A DNA stretch of 64,000 bases from Branchiostoma floridae (lineage: Eukaryota > Chordata > Leptocardii > Amphioxiformes > Branchiostomatidae): contig NC_049982.1 of the NCBI RefSeq assembly GCF_000003815.2, forward strand, positions 13,299,822 through 13,363,821, given 5' to 3'. This document shows positions 7,814-59,480 of this stretch, piece by piece (within the stretch, counting starts at the first letter, position 1; each line of letters opens with the position of its first letter). The notes beneath the pieces are model-generated. The model was not told the DNA's origin. It did no database searches and worked only from the letters and a program-made list of their open reading frames with translations. The position numbers were made by a program, and so were the translations under genes.

Positions 7814-7814
<1 letters not shown>

Positions 7815-7850
<36 letters not shown>
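7815..7850. repeat. (AT)n microsatellite
   Basis: A perfect AT run bordering the assembly gap. It probably caused the gap. Confidence 0.95.
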
Positions 7851-7852
<2 letters not shown>

Positions 7853-35891: not shown

Positions 35892-38800
35892 ATGGACATG
35901 GAAGATAAGAGCCTTTTTGTGGGAAGGCAAAAGGGTGGTGACAGCCATGACTGCACTCCTGTAAGTCAGCTATTGCAATTGAATTATACATTTGTAAATG
36001 CCTTCTGTCGTATCTTTGCCACCTAGGTACAGAACATTCTTTTCTACAATGAATTAATTCTGTTAAATTTTGTAGTTAACATGTAGATCACCCTATTGGC
36101 ACCTCCAAATTGATAACTTTTCTGTGACTTATATGTTTGCAGAAAATTTATCTGAATCAGAACTTTCTTACAAATAATACAAAATTGAAGGAAACAAAAA
36201 AAAAATTGTTAAGCTCTGCATGTTGACTATCAACAGCTCCACAATCATTATTGATTTATTGCAAAAATTCTATTTGTTCTCAACCTTTGATGTTTCAGTT
36301 CACATATATCACAACCCAAATTTAAAATCAGTCTAGATTATTCCACATTCCTAGTTTGACTTTGAACAATATTAATGTCTTCTCATTGCTGCATTACACT
36401 GCCGGACAGTTGATTTTGCTATAACGAGTTTCAAAACAGCCTGCATCATCAAGCTGCCACATTCTGAACATGCTTGCCCAGTCAATCGGACAAAATTAGA
36501 TTTGTCTGTAAACTCTAAAGGTTTGTCTGGATACAGTTCGAGTATATAGCTGCAGTCCGTATATATCTATTGCTAACCTTGCCACGAGAACATTTGTGTC
36601 GAGGATAGACATTTTTGTCAGGCAAATGTAAGATTCTAAGAAGCAAATCATTGGGGAAGGTCAGGGATATTGTCTCACCCCACCCCATCCCCCAGTGTCC
36701 TTTGACTTTCAGATACTGTGTCTCTGGCAGTTCTCTCATGTTGAACTCTCGTCTATTATCATGGTCCTTCTCTCCCTTACATTTGCCTCATGTTATGAAG
36801 GTGAAAGACAGTAATACTTCAATAGCCGACCCCTGCTAGACACCCACACCCTTTCTGAATTTAAGAAATGTTAGTTTACACCATCCCTTGTAATGGAATA
36901 TGTAAACGTCCTTTTTCTTTATTCAGTTGTATCATTGTTTTCTTACTAATTCGACCTTCAAGTATAAAAAAAAAAAGTTAAAGTTTGCCCATACATGTAA
37001 GATGCGTAGGGTGGCGCCCATCTCCACTTCGAAGCCCTTGGGCCACACATTTGTGCAAGTCACTACAGCAGGGGACCACAACACCTACATGTACCCACAT
37101 ACCAAATAAGACTGCTTGAAGCATTCTTGATTGCACAGGAAACACACACTTGCAGGTACACCATCGGCCCATGCATAGAATTTACTATACAGTACCTCCG
37201 TATTCCATGTCTTTTTTATTTAGGTGATTACAATGTGGATCAGAAATTAACTGCCTCTGTGTCAGGGCTCTAGCCAGCTCGAAATGTTTTTCCGTCAGCC
37301 AATTCCCATTGTCGCAAAAAACGCGAAAACACTATTCCAGGAGTTAGAGAGACTCGGAACTGAGATCTTGAAATACGGGTTTTTAATGAGATTATCGTAT
37401 GCAAAAGAGCGCAGACACACATTTATCAACAATCATAACAACAACAAAACAAACAGTGTGTGGCTTTTACGACTGCGGACGGCGTCCCCAAGCCGCCTAT
37501 AGCTTCCACCAAGGATTTTTGTCTGTCAAGGTTCACGGATTGGTTTTAAAATTTTTCCGTCAGACGCAGCAAATTTCCGTCAATTGACGGAAAAACGGAC
37601 GCTGGCTAGAGCCCTGCTCTGTGTTATATACAACATGTTGGGACTAATACAGGAAATTTGACTGAATTCCCCATACACATACATGTAGATCTATACGGTA
37701 GTGACAGCAGTCCTGAGCCCTGACATGGTGGACAAGCTGCCGACCAGGCGCCGAGAATTCCTGCAGAAACTGCAGACAGACACGGGTGTGAGCATCAACC
37801 TGCACAAGGGGGGCGGCACCTACGAGGTGGAGGGCAGTCTGGCTCAGCTGCAACAGGTGGGGGAAATCTTGACGCTCTATTCCTTTTCCCTGCCTCCAAA
37901 CTGTAGAATACATGTATAGCCAGTACAAATCTGGTGACAAAAGGTAATTGGGATAATTAAGGTTTATTTTCAGCAAATATAGAAATTACACTTTCCTTCC
38001 CAGACACATCTTTATGTGTAATCAACCCGATTGGGATATGTGTTTCTGGGAAATGTACAGTACTAGAGGTCAAATAATTGCAGATATGCAAGGAACCAGA
38101 AGTAGAAAACAGTTTAGCCCATTCCCACAATGGGGGAAAATTGCAAAGTTCATGATTGTCAGTGGATCTATATGCATAGTATTTCAGCCCCAGGATGAAG
38201 ATTATAGAATTTTCAAACTCTAATATTTCCCACCAAAGAAGTTTGGTCCTACTGTCTATGTTGTGTTGATAATAAAAACTTTTTTCGTTTTAGATACTTA
38301 CAATTACATGTACATTGTATCAACATCTATTTGCCCAGGTACATGACATACTGTCCGAGTTGGTTGGTAACCAGGGATCTCCACGAGCAAGACTTAAGAA
38401 GACAACCATCCCAAATGGCCTGCCTTCAGAGGAGGTTCATGATGCATCAGGCACAAAACCCATTGTGGACAAGGAAGTTTCTGACAAACCCGTCACAAAC
38501 GGGACACCTAAGTCAAAAGTCTCCCCATCTGGGAAACCTCGAGGAGAGATAGTAGAAAAGCGCAAGTCAAGGAATTCAGAGGACGATGACGGCTTTGAAA
38601 TTATAGGTGAGGCTGAACAGGAGGAGGCCGCAAGTCATCATCATCAGCCAGCTGTGAGGCCAAAGGTCAGGCACCAGCGGCCAATGGCAGCCCAGTTTGA
38701 CAATCATGACAGTGTGGAAAAAGCGTCTGGGGCAAATACGAAGAGCGTACGTGAGAGACATGAGGAGGAGGGGTCTGATTTGAGCTCAGATGATGAGGAC

Positions 38801-41800
38801 GTGATGGCACTCGACCAGGACACCTTCAACTACCTGTACCATGCTTACCAGGACAAGCTGCAGGACATACGCCGTCAGTACAGGGTCAAGTTCAGGTCAA
38901 AGAGCAATGAGACAGACATGCTGAAGTTCAAGGTCATCCCAAAAGATCCCAGCACAACTCTGGATCAGCTGACCACTGCCAAGGATTCCTTCATCGCCCT
39001 GTACCAGAGTGTTTTCCCCAACCTGGTGCAGGAGGTGATGGAGCTGGCCTATGACCCTGCTCTGGCGCAGCAGGTCAAAACGGCAATCGACAAAACCAGG
39101 AAAGATCATCCTGACGTGTATGTCCAGGTGGAGAATAACAACCACCGCTTTGCTTTCATAGGAGAACAGGTCCAGGTCAGTGATTAAGTGGGGTATTATT
39201 GTTGTTACATGTACTCAGAAGTTGGCACATGGTGTTTTTTGCCATTGTGTCAAATGTGTACATTTGGTATTGCCAAAGCAGTAAATCAAATTTCTATTCA
39301 TAGGATAACTTTTTTGTTACATTAGTGCTCCTTAAAAGAATTTGGTTGTTCCTTTCATACACAGGTGATTGAAGCTAAAAGCCAGTTCCGGCAGCTGTCG
39401 GGAGTGATGTCCGGTCTGGTTCGCCAGGTGGGTAGGCACCACACCCTGGGCGGTCACATCATCGTCCCAACCAACCTGGAGGACGAGATACGGGAGGACT
39501 TGACGCGTAATTTGGGCAGCAGCGTCCCAGAGGGGTACCCTTATGCTGAGGAGATTGAGCTCCGGGAACGTAAGACCTCAGGAGCCAGTGAGCCAGTAGG
39601 AAGCAGAGGGGTCAGGTTTAAGCAACAGGTGAGAAACATTTGACTGTAGGTACAACACAAATTCTCACTCACTCACCCACCTCCCGGATTATTGTCTGCT
39701 GTTCTCCATCCCTTGGGGGTTAGACGTGCTGTAGATGTGGGGCTTGATGGCAGCTTGCCAGCATCCACTGTCATTTGGGTTGACACTGTAGGTTGAGGAA
39801 GTGTATATCTTCCCTTATGTTGTCCATCCATCTCTTTCTAGGTCATCAGTTCTAATTGTAAAATTGTAGCTGAGTTTCCTTGGGTTGGTTACAACAGTTG
39901 TTTTATTTCATTTTCTTCATTCAATTCAGTATACAAAAGTGTTGCAAAGCTTCATAATTGAAGACCAATGAATATCAGTTAAGCATATTTGAAGTATGAA
40001 TGTACAGTGTTGTACAAAATTGTATTGTAGGCTTGATGGTACTCTTCTTTAGCAACCATGTTGTAACAATTTCTTTTGTTTATCATCCATAGAGTGACAG
40101 ATATGTGTTCAGGACAAAGGAAGGCATTACCGTGTCCATGTACCAGGGTGACCTGACTCAGGAGAACGTCACAGCTATAGTGAACGCAGCCAATGGCTAC
40201 CTGGCCCATGCAGCAGGCATCGCTGCAGCCATCCAGGAGCAGGCCGGGCCCAGTCTGGAGGAAGAGTGCAGGAAGTATGGAGTACCAAAGTATTTGGCCA
40301 CTACACGTGTGCATTTGGTGTTACAGTTGTCTTAAACAATATAGGCATTACAGAAGAGTGGAACACTTTGTCTGATTTCCTATCAGTAAGTAGTGAAAAT
40401 CGTCCCTGATGAGCTAGCTGTCTACTGCCATTTTCCATGTTTAAAATGTCAAATTCATGTACCAGTCATCACATACTGATCATATCTGTCATATATTCAT
40501 TCTACTCTTTACTCATTGACTGCTCTTGTTTATGTACATGTGACTGCTCATGCTTTCTTTCTTCTTGTAGCTCTTTCCTTCTTCCTTCTTCACATCCAAG
40601 CTCTAATGCCGTTCTGTCTGGTAAAATACCCCATCCTTTCTTTAACTTAACTATTTAATAAGTATCTTCTTTGTTCTCTACCTTTGAAATTGCAGATAAA
40701 TTTTGTTTGTTTTATCCTTAATATTATGACATGTACAGTCATGTATCTGTCCCCTAGGCTCTAGCTAGATGCATTGTTGATTTGAATATAATTCCTCCTG
40801 TCAACAAAACTGCCACCAAATTTAGAATCCTGAGATACATGTACATGTACAATTTGCTTAACACAAACATTGTACAGTGTTGATAATAATTCTACCCCCC
40901 CCCCATAAAAGAGAGAACTTAGATAAGTATCTTTTACATTGTAGCTCCAGCAAGAGTCTAGGATTTTACTAACCATGCAAAGATTTTTCTCACATCCCAC
41001 TTTTCTTTATTTCAGGTACATCAGTAAGCATGGCCCTTTGTACGAGACCCAGGTGATGCATACCAGCGCTGGGAACCTGCCCTGTCACTACGTCATCCAC
41101 GCCGTTGGTCCCAAGTGGCGGGACTACAGCAACAAGACAGAGTGTGCCAGTGCCCTGCGTGTGACCTTTCTGAACTGTCTGGACTATGCTAATGAAAAGC
41201 TTCATGCTACAACTGTTGCTCTCCCAGCCATCAGCACAGGTGACTTGTCCAAATTCCTTCTATTTGCTATCATAAGAGGTTTGGTCCATCAAATTGCTTT
41301 CACAGTTAACATTCTGTGCAGCATGTCTAACTTCTTGTCAAAGCTACTGTAACAGCTAAAAATCTTCTTTAAGATGTTGCATAATTGAGTCATATGTCAT
41401 TGCTTCCCCCTCAGGTATCTTTGGTGTACCAAACGACGTCTGTGCTAAGGCCGTGTACGATGCTGTCCGAGACTTCAGCAAGTCTCAGTCTCAGCTGGGC
41501 AGCCTGGGGGAGGTGCGGCTGGTCAATGCGGAGCTGGACATGGTGCACGTCCTGAGACAGATGTTTGAGGTCAGCATGAGTCAGGAGGAGGAGGAGGAGG
41601 AGGGATGTCAAAGCCCCAGTTCAGGGAGTGCCTTCATCAGGTGATTCATCTTAATTCTTATTATCCCAATGTTGAATCTGCAGTGTTCCTTGCCATGCCC
41701 AGTGATTGAATGCTGTGGAAGACTTGTTTTTCAATCTCAGACTCAGAGCAATATACATTGTATGTCTGCTGGACAGAGCTTTAGTAGAGTTAGCTTTTTA

Positions 41801-44800
41801 CATCCCTGAAACCTTGAAAATCAGCAGGTCTGAGGTTATTATTTTCAGACTATTAGGCTCAGAGATGCAAAATTATTTGAAATTCCTTTTTTGCACAGGC
41901 ATACATGGATCAATGAATTATCATGTGTAAGAGTTCACCATAATATGCTATTATGGACAGTCATTTACATTTGTGTAAGTCATTGATATGTATTTATAGT
42001 TTTAACCTAGTCTTGAAGATAATAAAAAGTGACTTAGTGATTCTTGTTCAAGGGTTTACCTGAGTATATGTGATACTCACTATCACTTTTTTTATCATGA
42101 ATGTTTGTCCTGTTTGTTTTCAGAATTTCCAAGACAACAGAAGAGGTTCTTGCAGCCACCTCCCCCAGGGCTGCAAGGAGGAGGGAGGAGGCTGGAGAAG
42201 TGGAAGAAGAAGACACAGAAGTGGCCCAGATCACAGAAATGGCCCCTGAGGAAGGAGAGGAGGAGCCAGAAGTAGAACCACTTGAGGACATACACATAGT
42301 AGCAGGTAAGCAAGGTAGGGAAGAGACAGAAAATGTGAGCATGGTTTGAGGGACATCTGAATCTGAGGTGCTTTTAGGATGACCCTGTAGTGCAACTGAT
42401 GACCTGGTTGAGATCCTGGTTCCAATTTTTTGTTACAAATGTAACTGGTCTGTAAGAGGTCTGTCCCAATCTAGCACATTTGATGGTTCTGATCAAGCAA
42501 GCCCAAACTGTATCTGTAGTAAGTTGTTTTGTTTTTCCTCTAGGCAAACCCAAACTCCTGCACTCCATTTCTGATCCGCATGGAGCCAGTGGGGAAAGGA
42601 GAAGGAAGCAGGACAAGAGTGATGTCAGTTTCACATCAATCACTCCAGACAGACCAACAAGAGGTTAGTTTTCTACTAAACATTTTTTATTCTGTTTCCA
42701 ACATAGGACAAGGACAATGTGGCACTGTACTCAAGTTACTATTTTATTTTAACAGTGAAAACTTTAGCTGTCATCAGCCTGACATTTAGCACATGTGAAG
42801 TGTATAAGTATAAGGTTCATTATATCTCTTCAATAGTTTATGTAAGGGCCTGTCCCACCTTTTTTTCATCACTTGAAATAGACCAACAATGGGTCAGTTT
42901 TGTAGAAAACTCTTGATGTACAAAAATGTAATTGGCCTGACATTAAACACATGTAGAGTGATAAGAGCTGTGTATTGTGAAGATTCATGATGAGGTCTCC
43001 AGCAGTTTGTGACACTTTCATCACATCAACTATTATCACTTTGAGATTGGCTTGACATTTAGTGATTTACCGGTAGCACCTGTGGCTGATTTGAGCTTCT
43101 CATGAATAAAGGTTCAAACAGACCTGTGGAGTGATAGAAAAGCTAACCCTAAGGGCCAATCCAGGCAGATGGCCAACATTACTCGCTAATCTGTCTTCGG
43201 TTAAGATGCAACTTGTTCCTTGATCAAGCTTTAGTTGAGGAAATTGTATGAAATGTTTTCAGGAGAAATGTCATGCATGTTGTTACATTTTTTTGTACCT
43301 TTCCTGAGAATTCTGGCAGCAAGGGATTACACGTGAAAATGCTTTGTAACTTACGCTGTAAGGACACACAAGTGCAGTGCATAGATGCTGATTTAAGCCC
43401 TCAGTTGTTTCAATCCACATCCCACCTGCCTATGCTTATCATCACTTCCTGTATCCTAATCCCTGAATCCACAGATCCCAACCCAACCTTAGATCAGGAG
43501 TCGGCTCCCCCTAGCAGCGATGACCAGACTGCAGCTGCAGAAGTACCAGGCACTGATGAGGATGACCCTGATGATAAACGTGCTTGTCCTTTCTGTTTCC
43601 CTCTTCTTTATATTCACCTTGTCTTTCACGTGTCACTTCAGCTGTTTATGTTTTTACCAGGTGGTTGGTTCAGATACATCGGGGGAAATAAGGATTTTCT
43701 TTTTAATGATAACTTCAAGATTTTTCTGTGTCAGAGGCTTGTGGTGGTTGAATATTGGAGTTAAATGATAATGATAAAACTTCATCTATTGGTAGTTTTA
43801 AGATGTACTGTAATATGGTATACACAGTGCATGTATAGATGTCATGATATACATTGTATTCCTCCTTATATGCCTTTAGGTCCAGTGCAGTTTACAACAA
43901 AGCCACCACCAGAGGAAGGCGTTATGTCTGAGAAGGAAAAAGTTATCAAAGATCTTCTGGACAACTTTGATAAACTGACTGATACAGAAAGGGGTCTCCT
44001 AGACCAGCTCCTGACAGAGACTGACCCACGGTCAGGCCAGTCACATGGAGTCCACAAGCCTCGTGTACGATCACGCAGCCTGGACAGGTCTCCCAAGCAA
44101 CCACCAGGAAGTGTAGAGAGGGAAGCTTCCAGAACAAGGTCACCACTTCGCAGCCAGAAGGCCAGAAGCACTAAGCCTAAAGACAATTGTCTCTTGTGCA
44201 ACACAACAGAGCAACTGCGTACAGTCCCCTTCTGTAAGGTAGGGCACAAGTACTGCCTACAGTGTAAGGTGAAGTATTACTCTCGCCTTCGGACATGTCC
44301 ACACAAGGACTGCCACGAACCCGTCACACCAGACTTCCGCAGTGCTTCAAAGAGCGCCTCCAATGATACAGAGAACAAACAGTTTACTTCAGCCACCCAG
44401 GCTTCAGCCGACCCAAGTAAGGGTCAAAGTGCAGCACGTATTCACTTTCCCTCTGATGTGGACAATGATCCCTCAAGTCAGGAGCCAACTTATGGTACTC
44501 TGTATCCATCGCATGAAAGTTCCTACCCCTCAGAACAACCAACGAACACGCAATCCACGGCCGGCAGCCGTTCAAGCTTAAAAAACACCTCGAATGTGGA
44601 CGGAAGACGGCGTTCGTCAGACTCAACCTTGAATCGTGGTGTTGAGCCAGAAAGCCAATCCCGCAGTGGCTATGTCCCTGAGACAAGAGTACATCATGGA
44701 AGCAGCCACACAGCTGATCCTTCTTCATTTTCACCAAGAAGACGTGTTTCAGATTCAGGTGCTTCTTCAACATACCCAGAACCAACCTCATCTCAGAGAA

Positions 44801-47800
44801 TCAGGACAACTTACAGTTTGGGGGAGAAGGCAAGCCAGCAGCACAGCCAGTCCAAAAGGAAACAACGTGGCCTTATTGTCAAGAGTCTGGCAGAGGACAT
44901 TGATGATGTTGGCCTGGACTCGGGACATCCCCGGCAGGGATGGGACTCAGACACACACAAGGGAAGGGACTCAGAGAACTGCTCTATTTGCAGGAGCACA
45001 TTCATGAACCCGAAGACACTTCCAAGTTGCGGACATGTGTTTTGCACTCCCTGTATCGACCGTGCAATGCAGATCAAACCGGTCTGTCCGATTTGTGGGG
45101 AAGTGTACGGCCAAACATGGGGGTCTCAACCAGAAGGGACCATGGAGTGGAAAGTGGATCCGCACCTACCACTACCTGGTTACGAACGGCAGGGGACAAT
45201 AGTTGTCATGTATGACTTCCCTGATGGCATACAAACAGTAAGTCATGTCCATATATAGCTGTAGGGGTATTTGTCCTTCTAGCTTGAGTCTTTGTACTGC
45301 ATTTTATTGGGAGGGGGACATTTCTCCAAAAGGAGCCAGGCTCAGTGTCACCTTGCCATAGGTTTTTTAGATTAATGATTACTGACACAATATGATTTTC
45401 CTTTTTATTTGTAATGTGCATGTAGCATGTGCTTTATTGTATGCACATGAATAGCTCAGTATACCCAATAGGGCAATAATGATATACAATATGTGTATCC
45501 TCATACAATGTATTTGTAACACATCAAGACTCATGCAGAAATCTAAATTTGAGTTTAAAGATGATTGATTAGAAAGACTGACAACTGTGTTATATTGGTT
45601 TGCTGAAAGCACATGCTCAGATCTGTTCCAATCATGTTTGTGTAGTCGGATCACCCAAACCCAGGCCGTCGCTACTATGGCTGCCATCGCAGGGCGTACC
45701 TCCCCAACACTGCAGAAGGCCAGGAGGTGTGCAGACTTCTGCACAAGGCCTTCCAAGCCAAGCTGCTGTTCACAGTGGGGCAGTCAGTCACCACAGGCAT
45801 GGACAACTGTGTAATCTGGAATGACGTCCACCACAAAACAAATACACACGGAGGCCCAACAAAGTAAGGTTTGATTCTCTGAATGGCACACACCGACGCA
45901 TTTCCACGTCAGTCTTATTATTGTATCTGTTTTCAAAGTAACTATCAAACATCTCCATGAAATACCAGGAGGCAAAGACGTCACTGCTCTGATGATTTCC
46001 TATCTTTGATGTCAGTGAAATTCAGACATGTAGATTAGAAGTACATTTTTGGTCATCTTTCTGTTCCTTCTACTCCAGCCACTACTTTGTTCACATTAAT
46101 AAGCTAGATGTTGTCCAGTGTTTAGAAGGCCATTACACTGTTTCAAGACATGCCGGTCGTTAAAAATGACGTTTCCGTTCACTGCCTGAAAATCTGAGGG
46201 CCTTCAAGCTTATATGGCGTGTGTTACAATCATTAGCTGAGCATGAACATTACAGAAATATGGAGGTGGAACTAAAAAAAAGCTGTTATTGACTGATTCT
46301 GAGACGCGCCTGGACTAATGAACATGGTCATGTATGAAAAAGTATTCCGTCAGATGTAGTATAAACTGGAAATTCAATAAACAACACAGCCATAGACTTC
46401 CATATATCTTTTCCTAAGAATTTAGCCGGCCCCTTGGGAGAAAACAATTTCAAACAGAGTCAACATGAAAGGGTACCAATTAGTCTGCTGATATCAAAAT
46501 AATATAGTTGACACCTCTTTGTATGCATGTAGGACAACACTATCAGCATTATATTATGTGTGGCTATTATATAAGAACACTGCTTTTCTTCTACCTTGAT
46601 TTGATTTGATTTGATTTATTTAGCTGTATAATCATGGGAAATACAGCCAGGCCAGGGCAGTAACTTTTGTCTCAACAAGCTGTTTTATTTCTGGCATGGA
46701 GAGATTTGCAGAAAGAGCCTCTGCCGTAATTCAGTATCCCCTTTCAGTCACAATGAAGTGCTTGATGTGTTATTAGCTCTGCCAAGAAGGTTACGTTTTG
46801 GTTAGAAAATTTTTGTGTGTCCCAGTATGTAGGTCAATATCATATAACTTGGGCAGCTGTGGATGGAATGTCACGATATTTGGTATTTGAGTAGCGATTG
46901 CGTATACCAAGGTTTTGTACGAAAATGGTACTTCTGGCACTTTCTGTCGTGAGTGCAGCGGGGGGAGTGTGTGCGTGTTTGTATTTGTGGACAATATAAC
47001 TTTTGACGCTGTGGATCGTTTTGCATTATATTTGGTACTTATTGAGGGGTTTGAAAAATGAGGGTCAAGTTCGATAATGGGTGTCCTGGCGACAAGTTGC
47101 GGTACGGCCAAATGCGTGCCGGACCGTAGATCAGCCGTCCGCGTGGCCGTAATCGGAAGTGTTTCTGTATCTGCGGGACCGGAAATCACGTAGGACGGGT
47201 GGCCGCTGAGCCTATTTCTTAATCATTACGAATCCAAGGGACCAACAATAAGTGGCCACAATGGCCAGGTGGCCGCTATGCAAAGGTGGCCGCTAAAGCC
47301 CCGGTCACAAAGCGCGTACGATTTCTTGCGATGGTATATTCCGCATATCGTACGATGAGCGCAGTAAATCGCAGCAAAATCGTGAGCAAAATCAGCCATC
47401 GCAACGCATCGGATGGTGTTCAAAATTTTTCCAGCGTTGTACGATTTTTCACTTGTGTCTCTTTTGAATAGCCGCCTGGCCGCTTTTGTGTTTCTTTAAC
47501 CAACAAAATGTGGACTTAGCTGTTGAATACCTTCCTATGATATATTTAACTGTAAAAATAAATTAAAAGAGACCATGACAACAAGAGCATTACAAGATAA
47601 GTTCAAATCAAGTGTGAGTACTGGTACGATTATCTCGGCCTGCTTGCCGGCTCTACGTGTCAGGCTCTTTCGAAGATCGTATCATGATATGCTATCAACA
47701 AAAAGATGCCATCATACAAAAATCATATCATATTGATAAGCATTATATCATATATATTTCCGACTCATAGAGCCTGTCTTTATGTTCGAGTTGTTCCCAT

Positions 47801-50800
47801 GGTTATTACGATTATGGTAAACTAACCCAAGACCGACGAGAGCTGAGATTTGATCTAATTATAAACTCACGTGCATGAAGCGATCAAACAATTGTCTGCA
47901 TCACCTGTGCGGGGCGCGCTGTTCTCTGGTTGCGACTGTGGCAGTTGCGACTGATATATTTTCCCTTTTCGTCAATATCCACAATATCAGGGAAAACTGA
48001 AACCATCACAACATGCTAACAATTCATAAATCTATAACCTCATCAGTAGACAAAAATTGCCGTAATGAAGTCTGCTATGGGGGCAAATAAAATCTTACGA
48101 CGATAGCGAAATTTTGAACATGTGCAAAATCCATTTCAGCTCTATTTTTCGCCATACGACGCTCCCCGATTTACTATGATTCACTGCGATTGACGCAGGC
48201 ACGTTCTTATGACCTCATCGTACGATGCACTACGCGCTTTGTGACCACGGCTTTATATACTTAAATCATTGCTTCCGATTCTCCCCCGACTTACGACGCA
48301 CTGCGCTTATCCTGCGCATCAGAAGGAATCGCAAGGAATCGTACGCGCTTTGTGACCGGGGCTTAATACAGGTTTGACTGTAGCTTTAGTGAGCTGTAAT
48401 TTTAGTGCCAGTTAGTTCACTCCCACGCACATTATTGTAGAGCCCAGGTGCACAGCAGAGCATGCCTACGCAATGCTCTTAGGGACTTGACGATATTTAT
48501 CGGGGAGGAGGGGCTGGTGCATACGGTGGGAGGGCCATTGAAAATTTTTTTGGCCTGGGGGGAGGGCCATAGAAAAATTTTTTGAGCCGGGGGGAGGGCC
48601 ATTGAAAAAAATTGCCTTAGGGGCCTTAATAAATACAAGCAAAATGTGCCCCTGAAATGCAGGAAATGAGGTTTCAGATGGTCAAGATTTCGATTTTGAA
48701 ACACCTCCGGCGCCCAGGACGCTCCGGCACTCGGCGCCATCAAAAATCAGACAGAAATGTCATTACATTTAACACAGTCTACCATGCAAAGTTTATCCCT
48801 CGAATTGCAGAAAATAGTGTTTCAGAGGGTCCAAATTTCAACATTTCAGACCTACCTTGCGACGGCTCGTGCCTTGTGCGCTCGAAATCGTGAAAATACG
48901 TTTGGGGCGGCGTCGCCCTCAATAATAAGCTAAAACCATGTGAAGTTCTACTAGAAAGGCTATTAAACTTGGCTTAGGCTGCCAGCAAATTTTGCCCATC
49001 CAAATTTAGGAAAGATCTTTTCTGATAGTTAGGATTTTAAAATTTTCCTGGGAAGCATGCCCCCTGACCCCCAACGATTACGTCAATATAGTTCGCCCTC
49101 CCCATATGAATTTTGCTGCAGCCGCCTCTCTTTTGATTCCATGTTCGCACGAATTTACGAAAGACTATAGAAACTAAATTGGTATCAATATCAATCCTGC
49201 ATGCATCGGCTTTTTGTAAAGAGAATGGTTCATGGACGACAACGGGATATTATAAAAGATATTATGATGTTTACTTTAGTGACAGCGGGCCGCTCTGCTG
49301 CATGTGACGTTATCATGATGGCACGAAAATTTTTCGGCAACTTTGGTTGGCGGAAATAACTCCCGTTTTGGAATGATTAAAGCAGTCTTGAAGCGGTTTT
49401 AGGAGCAATATCGCTAAAATGTACTCAAGTCTCTTCCAACTACAAAGTTAATTTATTTTCTTTTGTGTAAATATCGTACATGTGTAGTAGAAAAGATCGC
49501 CATGGAACAGCCCCTCCCCCACCCGCTTTTCTCTGTGTTGATATGGACGCATAAATCCACATTTACTTAACAATTTTTTTTCCTCACAGAATGCGGGAAA
49601 TTGCGTTTTAGACTTTAGAGGGTCAAAAGGAAAAATTTTGGGGGGAGGGCCATTGAAAAATTTTGGGGGGCAGGGGGAGGCCATCGAAAAATTTGGGGGG
49701 GCGGGGGGAGGGCCATCAAAACATTTTTTACCAGACATAGATATCGTCAAGTCCCTTAGTTACCTTTGTCCAGAAGGTTATGTTTTCAGTCATGCCATGG
49801 TATGGGTCTGTGGACACATTATCACGATATTTAGTATTTGAGTAGCGGCTGTGGAAAGGGAGGTCAAGTTCAAAATTGTTCACCTGGCATTTTCTATCAG
49901 TACTGCAGCAGGCTCTGAATTTTAATGCATTTCTCTGTGGGCAACATAACTTGGGAAGCTTTTGATAGATCTTGATAAAATTTGGAAGGTGAGTAGTGGT
50001 CATAGGAATGGAAGCTGGACAACACAAATGACCCCTTTCTGTTTGGCCTTAAGGTGAACTCTGCTGTGTCATGGGATTGTGGGGGGAGGGTCAACAATAC
50101 ATTATACAGTAAGGTACACAGCCCAAAATCACACTGGCAGTAGCAAAATTTGCTTTACAAACAGCCGAACTTTCAGTCCGGTATGGCAACTCAATCCTGA
50201 GCGAACAGGAGGGCTAAAGTTGTGTAAACTCAAGACCCACAGCCCAGGGAGTTGGTATAGCACCTGTACTGTCTTGTTAGCAGGTTCTGGCAAGCAGGCT
50301 GTCAGATGACTGACCTAGTATTTTGTAATGTACAGTTGTCTCTGATTACTTCATTGTTTAACAGACAGATGAGTGTACATGTAGCAATAATGGTTCAATA
50401 GGAACAGGAGGCACAGTTTGAGGTTGTTTTTCAGCTTTTGGGTAAGCACAAAGTAAACGACAGGACAGAGGTCGTGGAATCCAAAACAAGGGGAGAGGAA
50501 AAAAGGTTATTTTCAAAACCTGGACCACCCTGTACACGTACCTGCCATATATGCTATTTTTTGTATCAAGGAACTCTATAATCAAGTTATATCTACAATA
50601 GGACAGGAACATCATACTACCAGCAATTTTTGAGGTCTCAAAAGCAGGCATTTTTCATTATAGCCCATGTTTTTTTGGCAAAGGTGTATGTTCGTGAACC
50701 TCTAGTTACATAAGTCATTAAGTGGACCGTGGACCTTTATTTACATAAGAGCAATGTACTGTAATGCAGAAATATCATAGCCACAGCTTGTGAAGATTAA

Positions 50801-50968
50801 ATGAACACCACTTGCATAATGTACTTCAAAGCATGACAGGTTTTCTTGTTGACTTTTTCTGAGCTGTGCCCATGTTTTGTTTTGTTTTGCAGCCATGGTT
50901 ATCCGGATCCTGACTATTTGAGAAGGGTGAAAGAAGAGCTGGCAGTGAAAGGCATTACAACTTTGTGA
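35892..50968 (+). CDS. Macro-domain plus RING-Deltex (DTC) E3 ligase, 1342 aa, DTX3L/PARP9-like fusion
   Basis: Coding exons: 35892-35960, 37689-37856, 38339-39175, 39365-39628, 40093-40274, 41016-41239, 41415-41640, 42124-42305, 42544-42663, 43475-43579, 43880-45237, 45646-45863, 50893-50968. All have GT/AG borders and total 4029 bp. KH-like regions lie at about 25-90 and 210-400. A macro domain at about 447-635 has the ADP-ribose motifs IVNAANG (475-481) and PAISTGIFGVP (578-588). The loop HAAGIAAAI replaces the GGG-containing loop of hydrolytic macro domains, which suggests binding rather than cleavage. An acidic linker follows. A RING-like zinc site uses C896, C899, C911, H915, C918, C921, C932 and C937. 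A true RING uses C1160, C1163, C1176, H1178, C1181, C1184, C1195 and C1198. The DTC domain is about 1202-1342 ([36 protein letters not shown]). DTX3L/Deltex enzymes ubiquitinate targets and bind NAD+/ADP-ribose through DTC. The predicted role is ADP-ribose-directed ubiquitination. Confidence 0.92.
37255..37624. mobile_element. hAT-type MITE with perfect 8-bp target duplication
   Basis: The element runs 37263-37616 (354 bp). It starts CAGGGCTCTAGCCAGC and ends GCTGGCTAGAGCCCTG, and CTCTGTGT flanks it on both sides (37255-37262 and 37617-37624). The ends match the MITE at 4179-4418 (CAGGGTTGTAGCCAGC), so both belong to one family. Confidence 0.92.
46596..46665 (-). mobile_element. LINE 3' tail fragment, minus strand
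   Basis: A TTGAT pentamer run followed by TAGCTGTATAATCATGGGAA is the reverse complement of a LINE 3' end with an (ATCAA)n tail. Only the tail remains. Confidence 0.5.
46750..47100 (+). repeat. Dispersed repeat, also at about 49757-50060
   Basis: Both places share AGAAGGTTAYGTTTT, then CACGATATTTRGTATTTGAG, then TAGCG and GGTCAAGTTC. Their arrangement around the element at 48482-49755 suggests an old repeat cut up by later insertions. Confidence 0.5.
47294..48366. mobile_element. PIF/Harbinger-type MITE with 3-bp TAA duplication
   Basis: The element runs 47297-48363. It opens with AGCCCCGGTCACAAAGCGCG and closes with the inverted form (27 bp perfect), and TAA lies on both sides. A third terminal copy (GCGCTTTGTGACCACGGCTT) lies at about 48230-48252, followed by TTA. 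It shows either nesting or loss of a neighbouring copy. No transposase frame is left. Confidence 0.85.
48479..49758. mobile_element. Second Harbinger-like MITE (TTA duplication) with G-rich interior repeats
   Basis: The element runs 48482-49755. It begins GGGACTTGACGATAT and ends ATATCGTCAAGTCCC (15 bp perfect), with TTA on both sides. Both ends carry several units of GGGGGAGGGCCATTGAAAAA followed by TTTT. Its middle (about 48650-48840) contains TGCAGGAAATGAGGTTTCAG-like units related to the hAT MITE at 4179-4418. Confidence 0.85.
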
Positions 50969-52169
50969 CCATATCCGCCCGATTCATGTATGCCCCATCT
51001 TATTATAAATGTATAATGTGCCATCATTGTCTACAGTACGATAGAAGTATCCTTTATCTAAAGCATGCAACTGGCAACTACACCCACAATTGTTATACTG
51101 GTAATACTAAATAGTTAATTGAAATTGAGTTTGACATATTTATCTGAGCCAACATATATATACATGTAGAGAGAGAAAGAAGGTGATCAGAAAGCTTATA
51201 TTTGTGTGTTTGTGTGGGTGTTCATTATTAGATTTAGCCTGTTTGAATTTGGGATGTGGTGCTACTGCCCTTTAGAAAATGAGTTGGGTGTACATGTACA
51301 TGTACAGTAGTCTAGACAGCTTCTGTTATCAAAACTATCACTTCAGTATGACACCTGGCTGATTCAGGCCAATATTGATTTCAAGCTGCTTTTAAGAAGA
51401 GTCATAACAGGCTGCTCATGTATGCCTCCTCCTAGTAATGTTCTCTCAAAAGAAGTCTCAAAAGAAGAAGAATTATACATGTAGGAGTATGCACTACTGT
51501 CTACTAGACAAATTGAGAAGAAAGTTTTAAAACCAGGGTACACTGTACCATGGTTTGGTTCCAGTACACTTGCTGTCTTAAACTTTTGATTTTTTTTTAG
51601 CCGTTATTCATTATCATTTTCATGTTTTCAGATGATTTTATTTTGAGCCTTTTTGGTGTGTTTGGCTGTTTTATGCCATCATTGTATGAGATAATGATGT
51701 CACATCTGTCAGAAACATGACATTTTGTGCATGATGGTCGACAACCGGATCTTTTAATTATATAAGATCAATCCCATTACTAGCCTGATTTGCCTCTTTG
51801 AAGTTTACATTGTTATAATGCTGCAGTGTAGTCTGACAGAAAGTCTTTCCTGATTTGTTCCTACATTTTGTATCCCTACCTTCAATGCTTTGATGTACTT
51901 GTTTGAAATCAGAGTAATGTAATGTAATATGCATGTAGGATACAAATGTACCTCAATTATACTGTGCTCAGTGCGCACGTCTTTTGACGTTGTGCAGCAC
52001 ACACTGGTATTGTAGAGTTAATGGAAGTTTCCATATTAGTAACTTCTTTCAGCAGTAGATGTCCAACAAGAAACTAGATGTACTGTTTGAAGACTTTGTC
52101 AATGCTCTGTAAGAAAGTATTCATACCAACATGGCAACTTTGTGAAAAAGTTCCTTCCAGTGCATTTTT
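50969..52169 (+). other. Presumed 3' UTR and downstream flank of the macro-Deltex gene
   Basis: Sequence after the TGA at 50966-50968. No canonical AATAAA occurs in this stretch by eye, so the 3' end cannot be placed. No repeat was identified except TACATG runs. Confidence 0.4.
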
Positions 52170-53224
52170 ACCTCCATGAAATGTCATGGAGGTTATATTT
52201 TACCCTGCGTTTGTGTGTGTGTCTGTTTGTCTGTCAACAAGATAACTCAAGAACGGCTGGATGGATTGGTTTCATACTTGGTGTGTTGGTAGGGTGTGAT
52301 GAATGCTGGAAGTGATTAGATTTTGGGCCCCCTAGCGGCTTCCCTTGGTACTGCAGCGCAACTTCCGGTTTTGCTATCTCGTGTTCTGAACAAGCTATGG
52401 TCCCAATTTTTGGGTGTTAGATAGCTCTTGCGGTCAGGAATAAGTGACATAAGTTTGGGCCCCCTAGCGTCTAGTTTTGGGATAGCAGGGGCATTTTTGT
52501 CAAAAACTTCTGAAGACGATAACTCAAGAAAGGAACAGCGGATTTTCATGATTTTTGGTATGTAGGTACCTCAGACAATGTTGTACAAAATGAAATACTC
52601 ATTATGCAAAATTATATTACATTTGCATAATTAATGAGAATATTCTATCATAGCAGTTTTTTCTATGTATCTCTTGTCCCTGACGTGATATGGTCTTGAC
52701 ATTTGGGTGGTGGATAGCTTTCAGTGTCATGACAAAGTGGGGCAAGTTTCAGCCCCCTAACATTTAATTTGGGAACTGCAGGGGCGTTTTTGTCAAGACA
52801 TTCCAATGAGGATAACTGCAGAAAGGATTGACGGATTGGCATTATATTAGGCATGCGGGTACCTTAGGCAAAGATGTTCATAATGATATACATGTTATGC
52901 AAATGAGAGCTTAATTTGCATGATTAATGAGGAAATGGTATAATTCCATTGTTTTCAATAACTGGACTTCAATAAATGTAACACATGTTAATTATGATAG
53001 GTAGAATATAAGCAGATACCTAATATGGTAATGAGGAACTTATTTGCATAATTTATGTAAAAATTGCAAAACCGCTTTATGATTAATAATGGGAATTTTA
53101 TAATTGTGTACGTTAGTCAATGATGAACAACACCATGCATAAATCATGTTAATGTGTTAGTCAATTGCATGAAATTTATGAAAGCTCTAAATTTTCATGG
53201 AGGTATGAGGTCGCCGAACTCTAG
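52170..53224 (+). repeat. Dispersed repeat family, longest copy
   Basis: It starts ACCTCCATGAAATGTCATGG and ends CATGGAGGTATGAGGTCGCC, so the ends form a short inverted pair. Inside it repeats two related modules (GATAACTCAAGAACGG at 52241, GATAACTGCAGAAAGGA at about 52811) with CCCCCTAGCG and TACTGCAGCG motifs, then TTTGCATAATTAATGA blocks. No coding frame. It is likely a non-autonomous mobile element of unknown class. Confidence 0.75.
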
Positions 53225-55084
53225 TTTTGTAATAAGTTCATGTATCTACTCTAGTTTCTTTTGTGTATAGCTGCTAGTGTGAGTAGTTTATTGTAATTAA
53301 CTGCAAGCACCCTGTCACCCACTGGGAAAAATCTTACGGTTCAACTTGACTGTTTCATGTATTTTTGGTTTGGAACTTCAGTACATGTGTAAGGTGGACT
53401 GGTATCAATCATGCATAAAATGAAGTATGGAAAATTTTGAAAAAGGAATCCTACATGTAACACAAGTAGTTGTTGCAATTTTTTTTATAGATGTAACAGA
53501 ACAATATAGGAGAATGATAATGACACTCATTAATGTGTTTGATTATAGATATCTTTGTGTTGCTGATAATGTTAACATGGGTCATAGGTGAGTAGGAAAG
53601 TGGGTAATTTTATGTAAATTTTATCGATTTTTGTTCGGAGAGTCATAACAGGCTGAACTAGTAGTGTTGCTATACAAATGATCCTGAGGACATAGTATTG
53701 ACATTTTTAAATGTACAGGTGATGTACATTGTAGAGTCGTATGTATGTTTTGACATCATGAAGCCAATCTCAGCTGATGAATAAGGATGTGGGAAATTTG
53801 AAATGCTGTCACAGAAAGTGGTTCTGCACTTCAGACAATCAAGCTTGCATTTATCGAACCATATCCTGCCAGGTCAATCGATTCTCATAGGCGGAAATGT
53901 GTGGGTCAGCCCTCAAACATGCCTACAGGCTGCAGTACAAAGGGTGGCACGTTAATGGGCCTATGATTTAAGAACTTCAGGGTTTTACAGAGATTTACCC
54001 ACATACCAAATATGGAATCACACCCAGGCATTCTCTACTTATCTTTCGGACAGGCATCTCCGTGACAAACAAACCACAGCCACTACAATGCCTCCGTTTA
54101 ACCCGCAAGTACAGACTGCTTTTAGATTTTCTTTTTACCCCTCTACGCACAAATACACACACCGTGAGTGATACCCTAGCAGGGGTTATTCGACGTTTAG
54201 AGGGTAACGTTACTATAGAGGAGGAAGAAGAAGCAGAAGAGGAATTCAACTGAGATGCACAGGAAACTCACATCATTATTTCACATCGCTATCCCACTTT
54301 TACCAGCCAACCGCTTTGTGTCCCATTTTGCAGTTTTCTGAAGTATCTAGTGACTCGTTAATCAATGGGAAAGAGTACATAATTTGGCACAGAAAATAAT
54401 GATCTCATGACACTCAAATATCGAAAGTCAAGTTGATCATTAGGGCATGTACTGACGGATGAGGATGCCTGAAAAGGCTGAAACGTTCATATCTACCACT
54501 TGTCCTACTTTACCAAATGACCTAATTATAAATGTCCTACTTTGCCAATTCTGAATACTGTAATGTCTTTAAAGGGTAGCAGGAGAATTTATCTAACATA
54601 TGATATCTGCATGAAATAAAAGAAACACGGGGACAAGAAGTGTCGGTATATTTTAGTTAACCCGACCCTTTATTCATCATGGGATAAATTCAACTGAAAA
54701 AAAATTGACACGTACCAACGATAACAGCTAGCCCGTATTTTAAGGTACATTAATGCGCCTCCAGAGACTTTCCAAGTGGAACGGTTGCCATAGGCTCCAT
54801 TCAGTCAGGCAAGATAACGCCCAGCAAGTCATTTTACGTTGTACATTGACCCATACAGCCCCATAACAGTTATAAGGGAGACCTACTCGCCTTACTTTCC
54901 GTTAAGGATTGCAGACGCGAACATATGAGCTAACTACCATCCGGATGGTATCCAGGCTAGCTTACTTACTTACTTATCCTCTTCGTCCCTGATGAGACAT
55001 AGCTTAGCGTGTGTTATTAGAAATTGAATTGTACTTTGCATGGACCACTCCCCATTTGTTTCACCATTTATGCCCCAATGTTAG
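53225..55084. other. Intergenic sequence, nothing recognised
   Basis: AT-rich and non-coding. A short ORF at 54062-54253 ends in a glutamate run and shows no family. The segment CCTGAAAAGGCTGAAACGTT at about 54468 may be repeat-derived. Confidence 0.45.
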
Positions 55085-55806
55085 GTTGGGTGTGTAACAG
55101 TGTCAATGTGTCTGTGTATTTGTGTTTCCGGATATTTGTGGTCAGGCGCCGTGTATTTGGTAAGTGGGTAGAGGTTGGGAAGGCGAAGGTCAAGGTCGAT
55201 TTTTGGCCCCCTGGTATGTGAACTTGGTACTGCAGCTGAACGTCCAGTTTTTGTATCTTGCCCCGGACGTGCTATGGTCTTTATATTTTGATAGCAGATA
55301 GGTTGTGATGTAAGGAAAGCAATTGTACAGGTTTGGGCCACCTGACAGCTTGCTCTGGAGCTGCAACTGCTCCTTTCTCAGAATCTTCCGAAGAGAATAA
55401 CTGAAGAAAGGAACCATGGATTTCCATAATATTTGGTATGCAATTAGCTCAAACAGAGATGTACATTATCAAGTGCAAGTGCAAGTAAGAAACTAAGTTG
55501 CATTATTAATGAAGAAAATCTATATTTACATTGTTTTCCATTACAGCACTGATACACATAAAATGTGTAGTTTATGACAGGTGGAACATAAACAGATACC
55601 AATTATGAAAAGAAGTTCCTAATTTGCATAATTAATGAAATAGTGCCATAATTCTTATAACTATAACGGCCGAAAATTGATGTGAACGCGGATGTCATCC
55701 AATTGTAATCAAATCAACATGGACTAACTAAGCATAAATCATATACATGTAGAAGTTGTTTGCATAATTAGAACATTTCATGGAGATATGATGTCTCCGA
55801 ACTCTG
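55085..55806 (+). repeat. Dispersed repeat family, copy 2
   Basis: Same order of motifs as 52170-53224 (TTGGTACTGCAGCTGAACGT, AATAACTGAAGAAAGGAACC, TTTGCATAATTAATGAAATA) and the same end, CATGGAGATATGATGTCTCC. It is truncated at the start. Confidence 0.75.
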
Positions 55807-55839
55807 GTTCACTCTGTATTTGTGACTTCCATGATGGAC

Positions 55840-57110
55840 GTATCGGTCTTATTTTGAGATTTCCTAACGCCCTTGCTGATTTCCTTTGGTAGAAAAGAAA
55901 TATCGCAGGCTGCCACGAACACCACTTAAGTTAAAACTCTGGTGACGCTTTAGTGATCTTTAGTTAACTCTAGTTAGATGCACGCTGAAGAAGAGTGATG
56001 GATGTCACTCGAACGTCATGAAGTAAATCTCCGTTTTTATCCAATTGTAGAGATTAAATCGTATTTGAACACTTTAGTCGTCCTCCTACGCAGGGACATC
56101 CAAGAGCGAAACCGCCTGTCTGAATGTACCCTGCTTTCTCAACCGTCGCTCTCGGTTCCTGACCGCCCTGCTTATAAATATCAATGAGCTTACCCTTATA
56201 TATGCGAAAACTGAAAGGCCTATTCTCTGATTGGCTGACAGCTGGTTTGGGGGGGGGGGCGTCCACATGAACTAATGGTGACGGTTGAGAAAGCAGGGTA
56301 CATCCAGACAGGCAGTTCCGCCGTTGGATGTCCCTGCGTAGGAGAATGACTTTAATGAATGTTTTAAACATTTAGAAGCAGGAATGTTACCCATCGTGTT
56401 ATTAAACTCAAAGGTCAAGCACAGAACTTGTCTGTGCCAATGGTTTTGATGGACTTATCTATTCAAATACTGACTCCAGACAGACCCAAGGTGGATAGTC
56501 TTATTTTGAAGATGGTGATAATTGCCTTCTTGAGACAGCCATTACCTAACGCCCTCGCTGATTTCTATTTGGAGAAAAGAAATATCTTCGGCTGACACAC
56601 GCTGTCACGAGCAAACTTTGGTAAAATAACTCTAATGACGCTGCAGAAGAGTGATGGATGTCACTCGAACGTCACTCCGAAGTAAATTTCCGTTTTGATC
56701 CAATTGAAGAGATTGAATCGTATTTGAACACTTTAGTCAATGCTTCAAACATTTAGAAGCAGGAATGCCATCCATCGTACGCGTGTTATTGAACTCAAAG
56801 TACAAGCACAAAACTTGTCTGTGCCAGTGGTTTTGATGGACTTATCGATTTAAATGCTGACTCCAGACAGACCCAAGGTAGATAGTCTTATTTTGAAGAT
56901 GGTGATAAATGCCTTCTTGAGACAGACATAACCTAACGCCCTCGCTGATTTCTTTTTGGAGAAAATAAATATCTTTGGATGACGCAGGCTGTCACTGGCA
57001 CCACTTTGATATCAATGTTTAGAACATTTAGAAGCAGAAATTGCTTTCATCGTGTTATTGAACTCAAAGGTCAAGCACATAACTTGTCTGTATGTGCTAA
57101 TGGTTTTGGA
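55840..57110 (+). repeat. Tandem repeat of about 380-400 bp, three partial to full units
   Basis: Units share CTAACGCCCTCGCTGATTTC, GAAGAGTGATGGATGTCACT, CGAACGTC, ATCGTATTTGAACACTTTAG, CATTTAGAAGCAGGAATG and CAGACAGACCCAAGGT. Units begin near 55840, 56520 and 56930. The first unit is lengthened by the insertion at 56079-56348. Confidence 0.85.
56071..56356. mobile_element. MITE inserted in the tandem repeat, with empty site nearby
   Basis: The element runs 56079-56348 (270 bp). Arms of about 65 bp are inverted copies, starting CGTCCTCCTACGCAGGGACA on the left and CATTCTCCTACGCAGGGACA on the other strand. The flanks are ACTTTAGT (56071-56078) and ACTTTAAT (56349-56356). The unit at about 56731 has ACTTTAGTCAATGCTTCAAA with no insert, confirming the site and the 8-bp duplication. 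Confidence 0.9.
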
Positions 57111-57274
57111 GACTGAAGAGTCGTCAACAGAACGAATGGGGCACAACTGCTCCGCACTGACGACTGCTCCCCACTGACGGTACAATGTCTTTCCTCCATT
57201 ACCTAATCCTGCAGCATTATAGAATGGAGTATGATTATTTCTTCCTCTGACACCTAATATATCAAGCTGCTTGC

Positions 57275-57783
57275 TAAATGTGTGTGGGACCGAGTAGCGC
57301 AGCGGGACCGTGTTCGGCCCGTGACCGGTTGCCGTGTTACAGATCTTGTGCCCCTGGGAAAGGCACTTTACACGACTTTCCTCACTTTACTCAGGTGAAA
57401 ATGAGTACCTAGCTTTTGCTAGGGCCGTCCCTCCGATAGGACGTTAAATGGAGGTCCAATGTCTGGGGAGAGCCATACCCCAGGCACGTTAAAGAACCCG
57501 CCACACGTGCGATCGTGCGGTGTGAGTTGTTCAAAACCTACAGTACTTTGGCCGCACCTGGGGCAATTACTGTCGTATTGAGGTTACCTGAGTGGCGCCG
57601 AATGGCAGCTCGCTCCAGACCCTTGCGACAGTCGTATTGAGGTCACCGTGTGAGTGGCGCCGAATGGCAGCTCGCTCCAGACCCTAGCGATTGCCCACCT
57701 ATTGTAAGCTCCTCGCAATTCAGCCCCTGGCTGGCTGCAAAGAGTGAGTAGTCGGCCCACCCAATAACCCAATAACCCAAATT
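57275..57783 (+). mobile_element. tRNA-derived SINE of about 500 bp
   Basis: A tRNA-like head (GAGTAGCGCAGCGGGACCGT) is followed by a body with GGAAAGGCACTTTACACGAC, GGACGTTAAATGGAGGTCC and GGCACGTTAAAGAACCC. Then comes a 60-bp direct duplication (57570-57630 and 57630-57690, with GAGTGGCGCCGAATGGCAGC) and a CAATAACC tail. The exact family is not named. Confidence 0.75.
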
Positions 57784-58262
57784 ATGCATCGATGCTGGAT
57801 TTGGGAATTTCAAAGCTAAAGACAGGAACATTTTAGGTGAAAAAGTGAGCCATTATGTTGCCTAGATCAGTTGTGGTTCTATTAATGCCAATCTATAAAT
57901 GATATCGATATTTCTACTGACCTCGCATACCTTAGAGAAATACAGACTTCCATGCTGGCTGAAATGAGAATTGCACTTTTCTAAGGAAACAAAGTTTTGA
58001 AAGGTTTGACCTATATATCTACCAGTCCTGACTCTCAGATGTGACAATGTTTGGTCATGAGTGTTGGCTAACGTTTATGAATGGATTGTGTAAAACTTTG
58101 TAAGCTTAGGCCATAGCAAAGAGTGTCAGTCATGGTAAAGATGCCCTTGAGGCCGTAGAACTGGTGGTATTGGGAAGCGGAGCTTAGCCTCTGTTGCAGA
58201 TTTAGACTCCCGGGGTTGTTTTCTTTCAGTTGTCATTTTCATACTACAGATTCGCCATTTTC

Positions 58263-58418
58263 GAACACATCGCGGCCAGGTTTCGCACGAAGGTTGTTTT
58301 GCTGGAAAAAAGAATATGTAGGGGGGTTTGTTGTGGGCGGACTACAAACTCCCCAGCATGTATTCCTTTCAAGGCATAAGAACCTTCCCGGTGCGAAACC
58401 TGGTCGCGATGTGTTAAC
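58263..58418. mobile_element. Short foldback MITE
   Basis: GAACACATCGCGGCCAGGTT is mirrored by AACCTGGTCGCGATGTGTTA, with about 35-bp arms and a core of about 85 bp. ORFs on both strands across it are products of the inverted sequence. Confidence 0.8.
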
Positions 58419-58699
58419 ATCCAATAACAACTTGCGTCAACGCCCACAGAAAGCCCATCGCAAGAGGCTACTGGTTCAGCGAGGTTTAGATATATGTTTT
58501 ATTTGCAAAATTGTGCCCGAGGCTAATTACACGTACAGTCTCAAAGTAATTAAGTATATAACACTAGTTTCCAATCAAATATAAGGTACTACATTGACTA
58601 TTGTGGGTTTTGACTTCTGATTTGAGGATAGTGGTTAAAGAACTGTCCCACGTTTTGCAAAATAGGTGGGTTTTGTGATTTTGATTAAACGTAGACTTT

Positions 58700-59430
58700 T
58701 GGTGATTTTCTAATTAATCATAATGGCAAAAGCTCGGCGAAATTGTGGCAACAGTTTGAATCTGCTTCTTCCGGTCTCGTAGTTAGGACATTGACTGATA
58801 AAATGTATCTCATTTTCCACTGCGTTCATTGGGGAATATTTACACAATCTATCTCGAACAGGTTGCTTTTTATAACGACCTCTTTCTATCTCTAATGGAT
58901 GTGCTCTCATTCTTATATTACACATGGCGGATCTTTCATCGAGCTCATTGAGGTAACGTTACAGGTAATTTTCCATCGAATATTTATATTTGACACTTTG
59001 ATAAAATCCTAGCTTACCATTATTTCGCAATTCGTTAAATAACGTTTGGACGTACATGTCAGTGAATCTTCTCTTTAACAATGTACGAGTATGAACTTTT
59101 GATTTGAATGTTTTCTCCGCCAATGGAAAATTTGATGTTCTTAAAAGTCCTCCCTGATTCATTGAAAACCACCAATTTTACTTTTCTTTAGGTTCACTTG
59201 AACCTTCCATTTCAGACAAAAGGCATTAAGCTTCCCCAGTGCACACTGTAATCCTGTTTCAGATTCTGAAAACATCACATCTAGAATCGATGTAATAAGA
59301 GACGGTAACTGAAAGAAAACAGGCGGCGGAATCTGCAACGTCCACCTTTTCGATGTGGGAGTGTGTGGGCTTCTAAGGTTATTCATATGGTCAGTTATAC
59401 CACACTTAAGGGCTATCAGCATGTACTTCT
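58700..59430 (-). pseudogene. Degenerate LINE reverse-transcriptase fragment, minus strand
   Basis: Read on the minus strand, 59422-59159 has an RT palm end (LQCALGKLNAFCLKW then VNLKKSK). 59162-58959 continues the connection region. 58925-58710 has the C-terminal knuckle-like domain (IRMRAHPLEIERGRYKK, then RLCKYS, then E-N-E-I-H-F-x-x-x-C). The frames are broken between these pieces and both ends are missing. Confidence 0.8.
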
Positions 59431-59480
59431 AATCTCCAAGCATATTTACCGGTGACATGAGACTGCATCGACAGCCGGAC

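Follow-up and report, generated by a model that had tools for sequence, protein, structure and literature searches.

A predicted DTX3L-type ubiquitin ligase with a built-in macrodomain, one of a gene family in the lancelet Branchiostoma floridae

In vertebrates, DTX3L, PARP9 and PARP14 cooperate in interferon responses. Can the macrodomain and the RING-DTC module that the PARP9-DTX3L complex unites also be encoded in a single chain, and if so, what kind of gene would that be? This question is raised by a locus in a 64,000-nucleotide stretch of the Branchiostoma floridae genome (C4:13299822-13363821, hereafter the window), part of a 513,431,437-base, 431-contig assembly, which is also the genome that we searched. 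A first-pass annotation had read positions 35892 to 50968 of the window as 13 exons encoding one 1342-residue protein, and had taken this protein for a natural fusion of PARP9-like and DTX3L-like functions. We found that the gene model stands and that a fusion of two such genes is not supported: the locus probably holds a single gene, whose product is an E3 ubiquitin ligase of the DTX3L type with a built-in macrodomain as ADP-ribose reader or eraser.

The 13 exons were rebuilt exactly, all on the plus strand, giving 4029 coding bases and 1342 residues. The joined frame has a terminal stop and no internal one, and every intron is bounded by GT..AG with consistent phases. Domains were called with Pfam over the curated cut-offs. 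KH_DTX3L (PF21718) covers amino acids (aa) 237-362 (E 8.8e-10, 38.9 bits against a cut-off of 27.4; E 1.5e-11 with the isolated segment), and Macro (PF01661) covers aa 476-594 (E 4.9e-31), the single macrodomain stretch in the protein. The RING finger follows at aa 1159-1198 (44977..45096; E 2e-8; PF13923, PF13639 and PF00097 over cut-off), and DTC (PF18102) lies directly after it at the C-terminus (aa 1207-1339, E 1.8e-57). The order is thus KH_DTX3L, macrodomain, acidic linker, RING and DTC, without a PARP catalytic (ART) domain, as none appeared among the 15 Pfam families with a listed match of E 1 or lower. The one macrodomain, the C-terminal RING and DTC and the missing PARP domain had all been read correctly in the first pass. 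Its "KH-like regions" came down to one, the KH_DTX3L match, since neither exon 2 nor aa 355-470 gave a Pfam match over cut-off.

To which known proteins are these domains closest? In a search of solved structures, the best relative of the DTC was human DTX3L (E 7.2e-47, 168.8 bits), followed by DTX2 (149.7 bits) and DTX1 (147.6 bits). The macrodomain scored highest with macrodomain 1 (MD1) of PARP9 (116.9 bits), then with PARP14 MD1 (102.7), E. coli YmdB (78.5), MACROD1 (72.7) and macroH2A1.1 (70.5). The KH region matched no solved structure by sequence at E up to 10, and folding the KH exon from its sequence alone gave a poor model (mean predicted local distance difference test score 59).

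His582 and Glu608 are reported as the DTC catalytic residues of DTX2 (PMC11460948), and the window DTC keeps the equivalents of both, in HHKT from aa 1307 and KEEL from aa 1331. At the position of Tyr719 in human DTX3L and His594 in DTX2, it has the His of HGYPDP. The DTC core, with HPNPG and HHKT, is encoded by exon 12 (45646..45863), and its end, with HGYPDP and the stop codon, by exon 13 (50893..50968), which aligns with DTX3L to near the C-terminus. Active PARP9 and PARP14 macrodomains are reported to require Asn and Gly in loop 1 together with a hydrophobic-aromatic pair in loop 2 (PMC10221186). The window macrodomain has NAAN and one Gly in loop 1, where the preceding Gly is replaced by Ala, and Ile-Phe in loop 2. 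ADP-ribose binding is therefore likely from these residues, and hydrolysis is uncertain.

We then considered whether such a chain occurs elsewhere in the genome. Exon matches numbered at least 49 for macro, at least 39 for DTC at 20 or more loci, at least 7 for KH_DTX3L and at least 30 for the PARP catalytic domain; the genome search worked on a limited set of candidates, so its match lists for macro, DTC, KH and PARP are lower bounds. About 10 kb was fetched around each of the 19 DTC loci outside the window. Among the matches listed, a macrodomain lies upstream on the same strand at 12 of the 20 DTC loci (the window, L025, L026, L028, L031-L034, L036-L038 and L041). The macro-bearing DTC genes form a family of at least 12 members, and the window gene is one of them. 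At three other loci (L024, L027, L030), a single frame leads from KH to RING without an intervening macrodomain, the known layout of vertebrate DTX3L, and five (L029, L035, L039, L040, L042) showed no KH_DTX3L and no macro in the sequence fetched. All seven KH_DTX3L matches listed fall at DTC loci, the window gene having the best (43.4 bits).

The family also bears on whether the window holds one gene or two. Each of the 11 macro-bearing paralogues has a stop-free frame that contains the macrodomain, or the second half of it, along with the RING, the start of the DTC or both; the RING is included in 10 of them, and L037 has the DTC only. In L026, KH, whole macrodomain, RING and DTC start lie within a single 963-codon frame, and the spacing from macro to RING matches is just 21-23 residues in L032, L033, L034 and L036. 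In the window, the macrodomain starts in exon 5 (40093..40274; GDLT, NAAN, AAGI), continues in exon 6 (41016..41239) and ends in exon 7 (41415..41640; IFGVP), whose homologous half is the one that shares a frame with RING and/or DTC in the 11 paralogues. Exon 11 (43880..45237) carries linker, an extra Cys/His finger, the RING and the first part of the DTC. Because the paralogues hold macro and RING or DTC in one frame, exons 7 to 11 of the window are most likely the split counterpart of one exon in the relatives, as judged from the reading frames.

Between these exons lie exon 8 (42124..42305, acidic linker), exon 9 (42544..42663, 120 bp) and exon 10 (43475..43579, 105 bp), the latter two also linker. 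Direct splicing of exon 7 to exon 11 breaks the phase, so that exon 8 is needed; exons 9 and 10 are phase-neutral, being multiples of three, and could be optional. The coding scores per codon of exons 8, 9 and 10 are 0.395, 0.289 and 0.26, and a score of 0.2 is reached by 0.4 to 1.3% of random stretches of the same lengths (3000 draws per length), although the score is partly driven by base composition and its null was drawn from 52000-63500 of the window. Exon 9 is the least certain linker exon and could be misread, since an alternative open frame scores slightly higher (0.292 against 0.289).

A pair of adjacent genes, one for a KH-macro protein that stops just after exon 7 and one for a RING-DTC protein that begins in exon 11 or close to it, would explain why unspliced exon 7 (41640) meets a stop one codon on, why an in-frame ATG stands at MSEKEKV in or near exon 11, and why no homologues were found for linker exons 8-10. 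Between the macro and RING parts, AATAAA also occurs on the plus strand (42021 and 43105), which speaks against a single chain; AATAAA is found in the window at chance level, making these signals uninformative. With exons 8-10 in phase and scored as coding, and with macro and RING and/or DTC in one frame in 11 of 11 paralogues, we rejected the two-gene arrangement as very unlikely; a split between 41640 and 43475, which the first-pass annotation had named as the case against itself, is strongly disfavoured by the same paralogues. The locus might also be a family member decaying into a pseudogene, given its long branch (0.5), many linker exons and large last intron (about 5 kb). The frame has no internal stop, the splice sites are all canonical, RING and DTC are over cut-off, the DTC catalytic residues are kept and the KH_DTX3L score is the best among the genome matches listed, so we regard a pseudogene as very unlikely.

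To place the family, we compared introns. A phase-1 intron with consensus splice sites interrupts the same loop-2 codon of the macrodomain in the window gene, where exon 6 ends within the Gly codon, and in 10 macro-bearing paralogues (Gly; Ala in L034). L026 lacks this intron. Four MD1 frames called PARP14-like because of PARP exons nearby, their type of KH or their kinship (L004, L007, L008, L044) are uninterrupted at that point. The first DTC intron, which precedes exon 12 in the window gene, falls after GIQ plus one codon in phase 0 in 12 of the 14 loci examined, the window included; it was not recovered in L025 and differs in L039, a DTX1/2-type gene.

The DTC tree comprised 23 rows, 20 from lancelet loci and three from human chains (DTX3L, DTX1, DTX2). 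Human DTX3L and 19 lancelet DTCs were separated from DTX1, DTX2 and L039 with support of 100/100, also when L042 was left out, and the DTX3L-type rows lack two residues that are found in DTX1, DTX2 and L039. Human DTX3L adjoined the 24.6-Mb cluster on C7 (88/88; 71/88 without the long-branch row L042). In approximately unbiased (AU) tests, made on the rows without L042, neither a lancelet-only DTC clade (p = 0.287) nor a pair of the window gene with human DTX3L (p = 0.395) was rejected. A single clade of all macro-bearing DTCs was rejected (p 2.4e-8), because L024, L027 and L030, which have no macro, are intermingled with macro-bearing L028 and L037 (99/97). Since L028 and L037 join L031 and L038 in the macro tree (98/95), the simplest account is that L024, L027 and L030 of the C7 cluster lost their macrodomains.

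The macro tree used 23 of 27 rows, leaving out the partial matches L045-L047, of unclassified kind, and also L007's second macrodomain, which is partial too; YmdB was the sole outside row, so the root is weak. The DTC-linked macrodomains formed one side of a branch with low support (47/77, 52% of 200 bootstrap trees), which counts against our reading. The PARP9/14 MD1 types (88/89) and the MD2 types (98/97) formed other groups, and PARP9 MD1 joined the lancelet PARP14-like macrodomains (90/79). The first-pass annotation had implied a PARP9/14-type kinship of the macrodomain; by score the closest match is indeed MD1, while in the tree the window type stands on its own weakly supported branch.

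How, then, did macrodomain and ligase come to lie in one chain? A true fusion would require a PARP9-like gene, minus its ART and second macrodomain, to have been joined to DTX3L. The top single-domain match to PARP9 MD1 fits this, as does the arrangement that Kar 2026 reports for vertebrates, in which PARP9 and DTX3L are linked genes with a common promoter; in human, both are genetically linked with PARP14 at 3q21.1. However, the KH of the window gene is DTX3L-type and not PARP14-type as in L008, the sole PARP14-like frame scanned (KH_PARP14_3 and KH_PARP14_1 over cut-off, KH_PARP14_2 below, no KH_DTX3L match). PARP9 MD1 groups with the lancelet PARP14-like macrodomains and not with the DTC-linked ones, the loop-2 intron is missing in the four PARP14-like frames, and Perina 2014 reports PARP9 orthologues from vertebrates only. 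A fusion is thus unlikely, and we rejected the name "PARP9-DTX3L fusion" on the KH type, the single macrodomain, the missing ART, the macro tree and the intron evidence. Alternatively, the macrodomain may have been gained in the lancelet line only and spread by duplication, vertebrate DTX3L never having had one, which we judge to be nearly an even prospect. A lancelet-only DTC clade is compatible with such a gain, and so is human DTX3L, which is known to lack a macrodomain; the best DTC tree, in which human DTX3L nests among lancelet genes by the C7 cluster, speaks against it. It is also conceivable, though we suggest this tentatively, that in the last common ancestor of chordates DTX3L already contained a macrodomain and was encoded close to a PARP14-like gene. 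The macrodomain would then have disappeared from vertebrate DTX3L, as it seems to have done in the lancelet C7 cluster, and PARP9, a duplicate of PARP14, would have replaced its role in trans. Since the lancelet-only clade was not rejected, the ancestral and the lineage-specific origins both stand.

Whatever the origin, a DTX3L-type ligase with a built-in macrodomain can be set beside known proteins. It has in common with DTX3L (BBAP), a vertebrate E3, the KH_DTX3L region, RING, DTC and the two-residue gap relative to DTX1/DTX2. It differs in the macrodomain between KH and RING, in the absence of a detectable RRM and in the His of HGYPDP in place of Tyr719; because of the macrodomain in the chain, we filed it as DTX3L-type and not as plain DTX3L. 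It unites macrodomain and RING-DTC, as the PARP9-DTX3L complex does, but within one chain, without ART and with one macrodomain instead of two, and its tree does not support derivation of that macrodomain from PARP9. With PARP14 and PARP9 MD1, its best solved matches, the macrodomain shares the loop-1 Asn, one loop-1 Gly and the loop-2 Ile-Phe; it is set apart by its own, weakly supported tree group, its own intron and AAG for GG. Reader and ligase are also reported in one chain in DTX1/2/4 and RNF146, through WWE, and in CHFR, through PBZ, whereas the reader here is a macrodomain.

We propose that the macrodomain would bind, and perhaps remove, mono-ADP-ribose where PARP14-like enzymes have marked their targets with it. 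The RING would load E2~ubiquitin and the DTC would hold ADP-ribose, so that ubiquitin could be attached to the 3'-hydroxyl of ADP-ribose or to lysines close by, and the KH region may dock partners or nucleic acid. In the vertebrate complex, KH4-5 of DTX3L are predicted to contact PARP9, and KH2-3 PARP14 (PMC11251020). A single chain might in this way perform the job of vertebrate DTX3L plus PARP9.

The role of PARP14-like enzymes in this scheme is drawn from the protein's own macrodomain together with PARP14-like genes in the same regions. Eight PARP catalytic exons were assigned as PARP14-like by nearby macro matches. Among the matches listed, 14 of the 19 DTX3L-type DTC loci lie less than 200 kb from such an exon, and the nearest PARP catalytic exon is 187.5 kb from the window gene. 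The five loci beyond 200 kb are at C7:5.90, C7:21.8, C7:24.365 (326 kb), C13 (no PARP match listed on the contig) and C19:3.02. Only about 0.6% of the genome falls within this distance (8 stretches of 400 kb), but the clusters are duplicated and hence not independent. Clustered PARP14-like genes are reported in Branchiostoma floridae by Kar 2026. Macro and DTC genes cluster on C4, C7, C13 and C19, three of which carry PARP14-like catalytic exons (none on C13 among the matches listed). The clusters on these four contigs are probably an immune-type expansion.

Several points weigh against a DTX3L-type reader-ligase, besides the low support of the macro branch. The function of the window protein is inferred from homology, and the protein is known from genomic DNA alone. 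At E 1e-3, KH_DTX3L was matched at only 4 of the 12 macro-bearing loci (the window, L028, L037, L041) among the matches listed. With the window KH as query, L026 gave E 1.2e-9 (0.0037 by Pfam, sub-cut-off), L031 a weak 0.068 and L038 just 0.47, and L025, L033, L034 and L036 gave no match; L032 has a KH match of E 4.2e-5, below cut-off. The KH part thus holds for some family members, not all. No N-terminal RRM was found on the gene model, whose 5' end is uncertain. Loop-1 AAG instead of the GG of PARP9 and PARP14 means that binding or hydrolysis by the macrodomain may be weak. Finally, human DTX3 and DTX4 lay outside the DTC tree, so that a kinship with DTX3 may exist.

In the literature searched, mostly without full texts, we found no description of a macro-RING-DTC chain or of this lancelet family. 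As far as this search goes, the family presents a new domain arrangement of a known kind of ligase. It allows tests of how the PARP9-DTX3L pair arose, and offers a simple system for asking whether ADP-ribose reading and ubiquitylation are coupled. If the macrodomain was ancestral, the vertebrate heterodimer would be the split of an older single-chain reader-ligase.

The remaining exons of the window gene are upstream. Exon 1 (35892..35960), the proposed start of 23 aa, was called from its open frame with donor gtaagt, without domain or paralogue support. Exon 2 (37689..37856, aa 24-79) is a KH-like N-terminal region with the best coding frame and similarity to L025 (E 3.4e-5). Exon 3 (38339..39175) holds an acidic linker and most of KH_DTX3L, from about 38810, and exon 4 (39365..39628) holds its end and an unassigned region. 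An unclassified RING-like Cys/His cluster, read from the sequence at aa 896-937 (44188..44313), precedes the true RING; it has no Pfam match over cut-off and is clear in the window gene only, with weak matches in other loci fetched.

Some other loci deserve mention. L037 (C7:24.609 Mb) has macro and DTC in one frame, and the RING was not found there; to judge from this frame, it is possibly a ligase-dead family member. At L043 (C7:24713600-24714600), a macrodomain follows KH-like sequence resembling L026, as seen by eye; this macrodomain groups with the DTC-linked ones, with no downstream DTC among the matches listed. L024, L027 and L030 (C7 24.58-24.64 Mb) each have a TRIM-like frame upstream on the same strand (RING match; B-boxes by eye), and TRIM-like frames were also seen by eye near the DTC of L035 and L042. 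L040 (oriented 6832-8289; C19:3.02 Mb) has a single 486-aa frame with RING and B-boxes by Pfam that ends in a DTC-like start, found with a local profile only (E 0.0018) and not listed by Pfam at 0.01; it is possibly a TRIM-DTC fusion. Within the window, 10 frames were scanned for neighbouring genes, giving mitofilin-like exons at 4512-6483 on the plus strand and BTB and Kelch exons at 15829-19429 on the minus strand.

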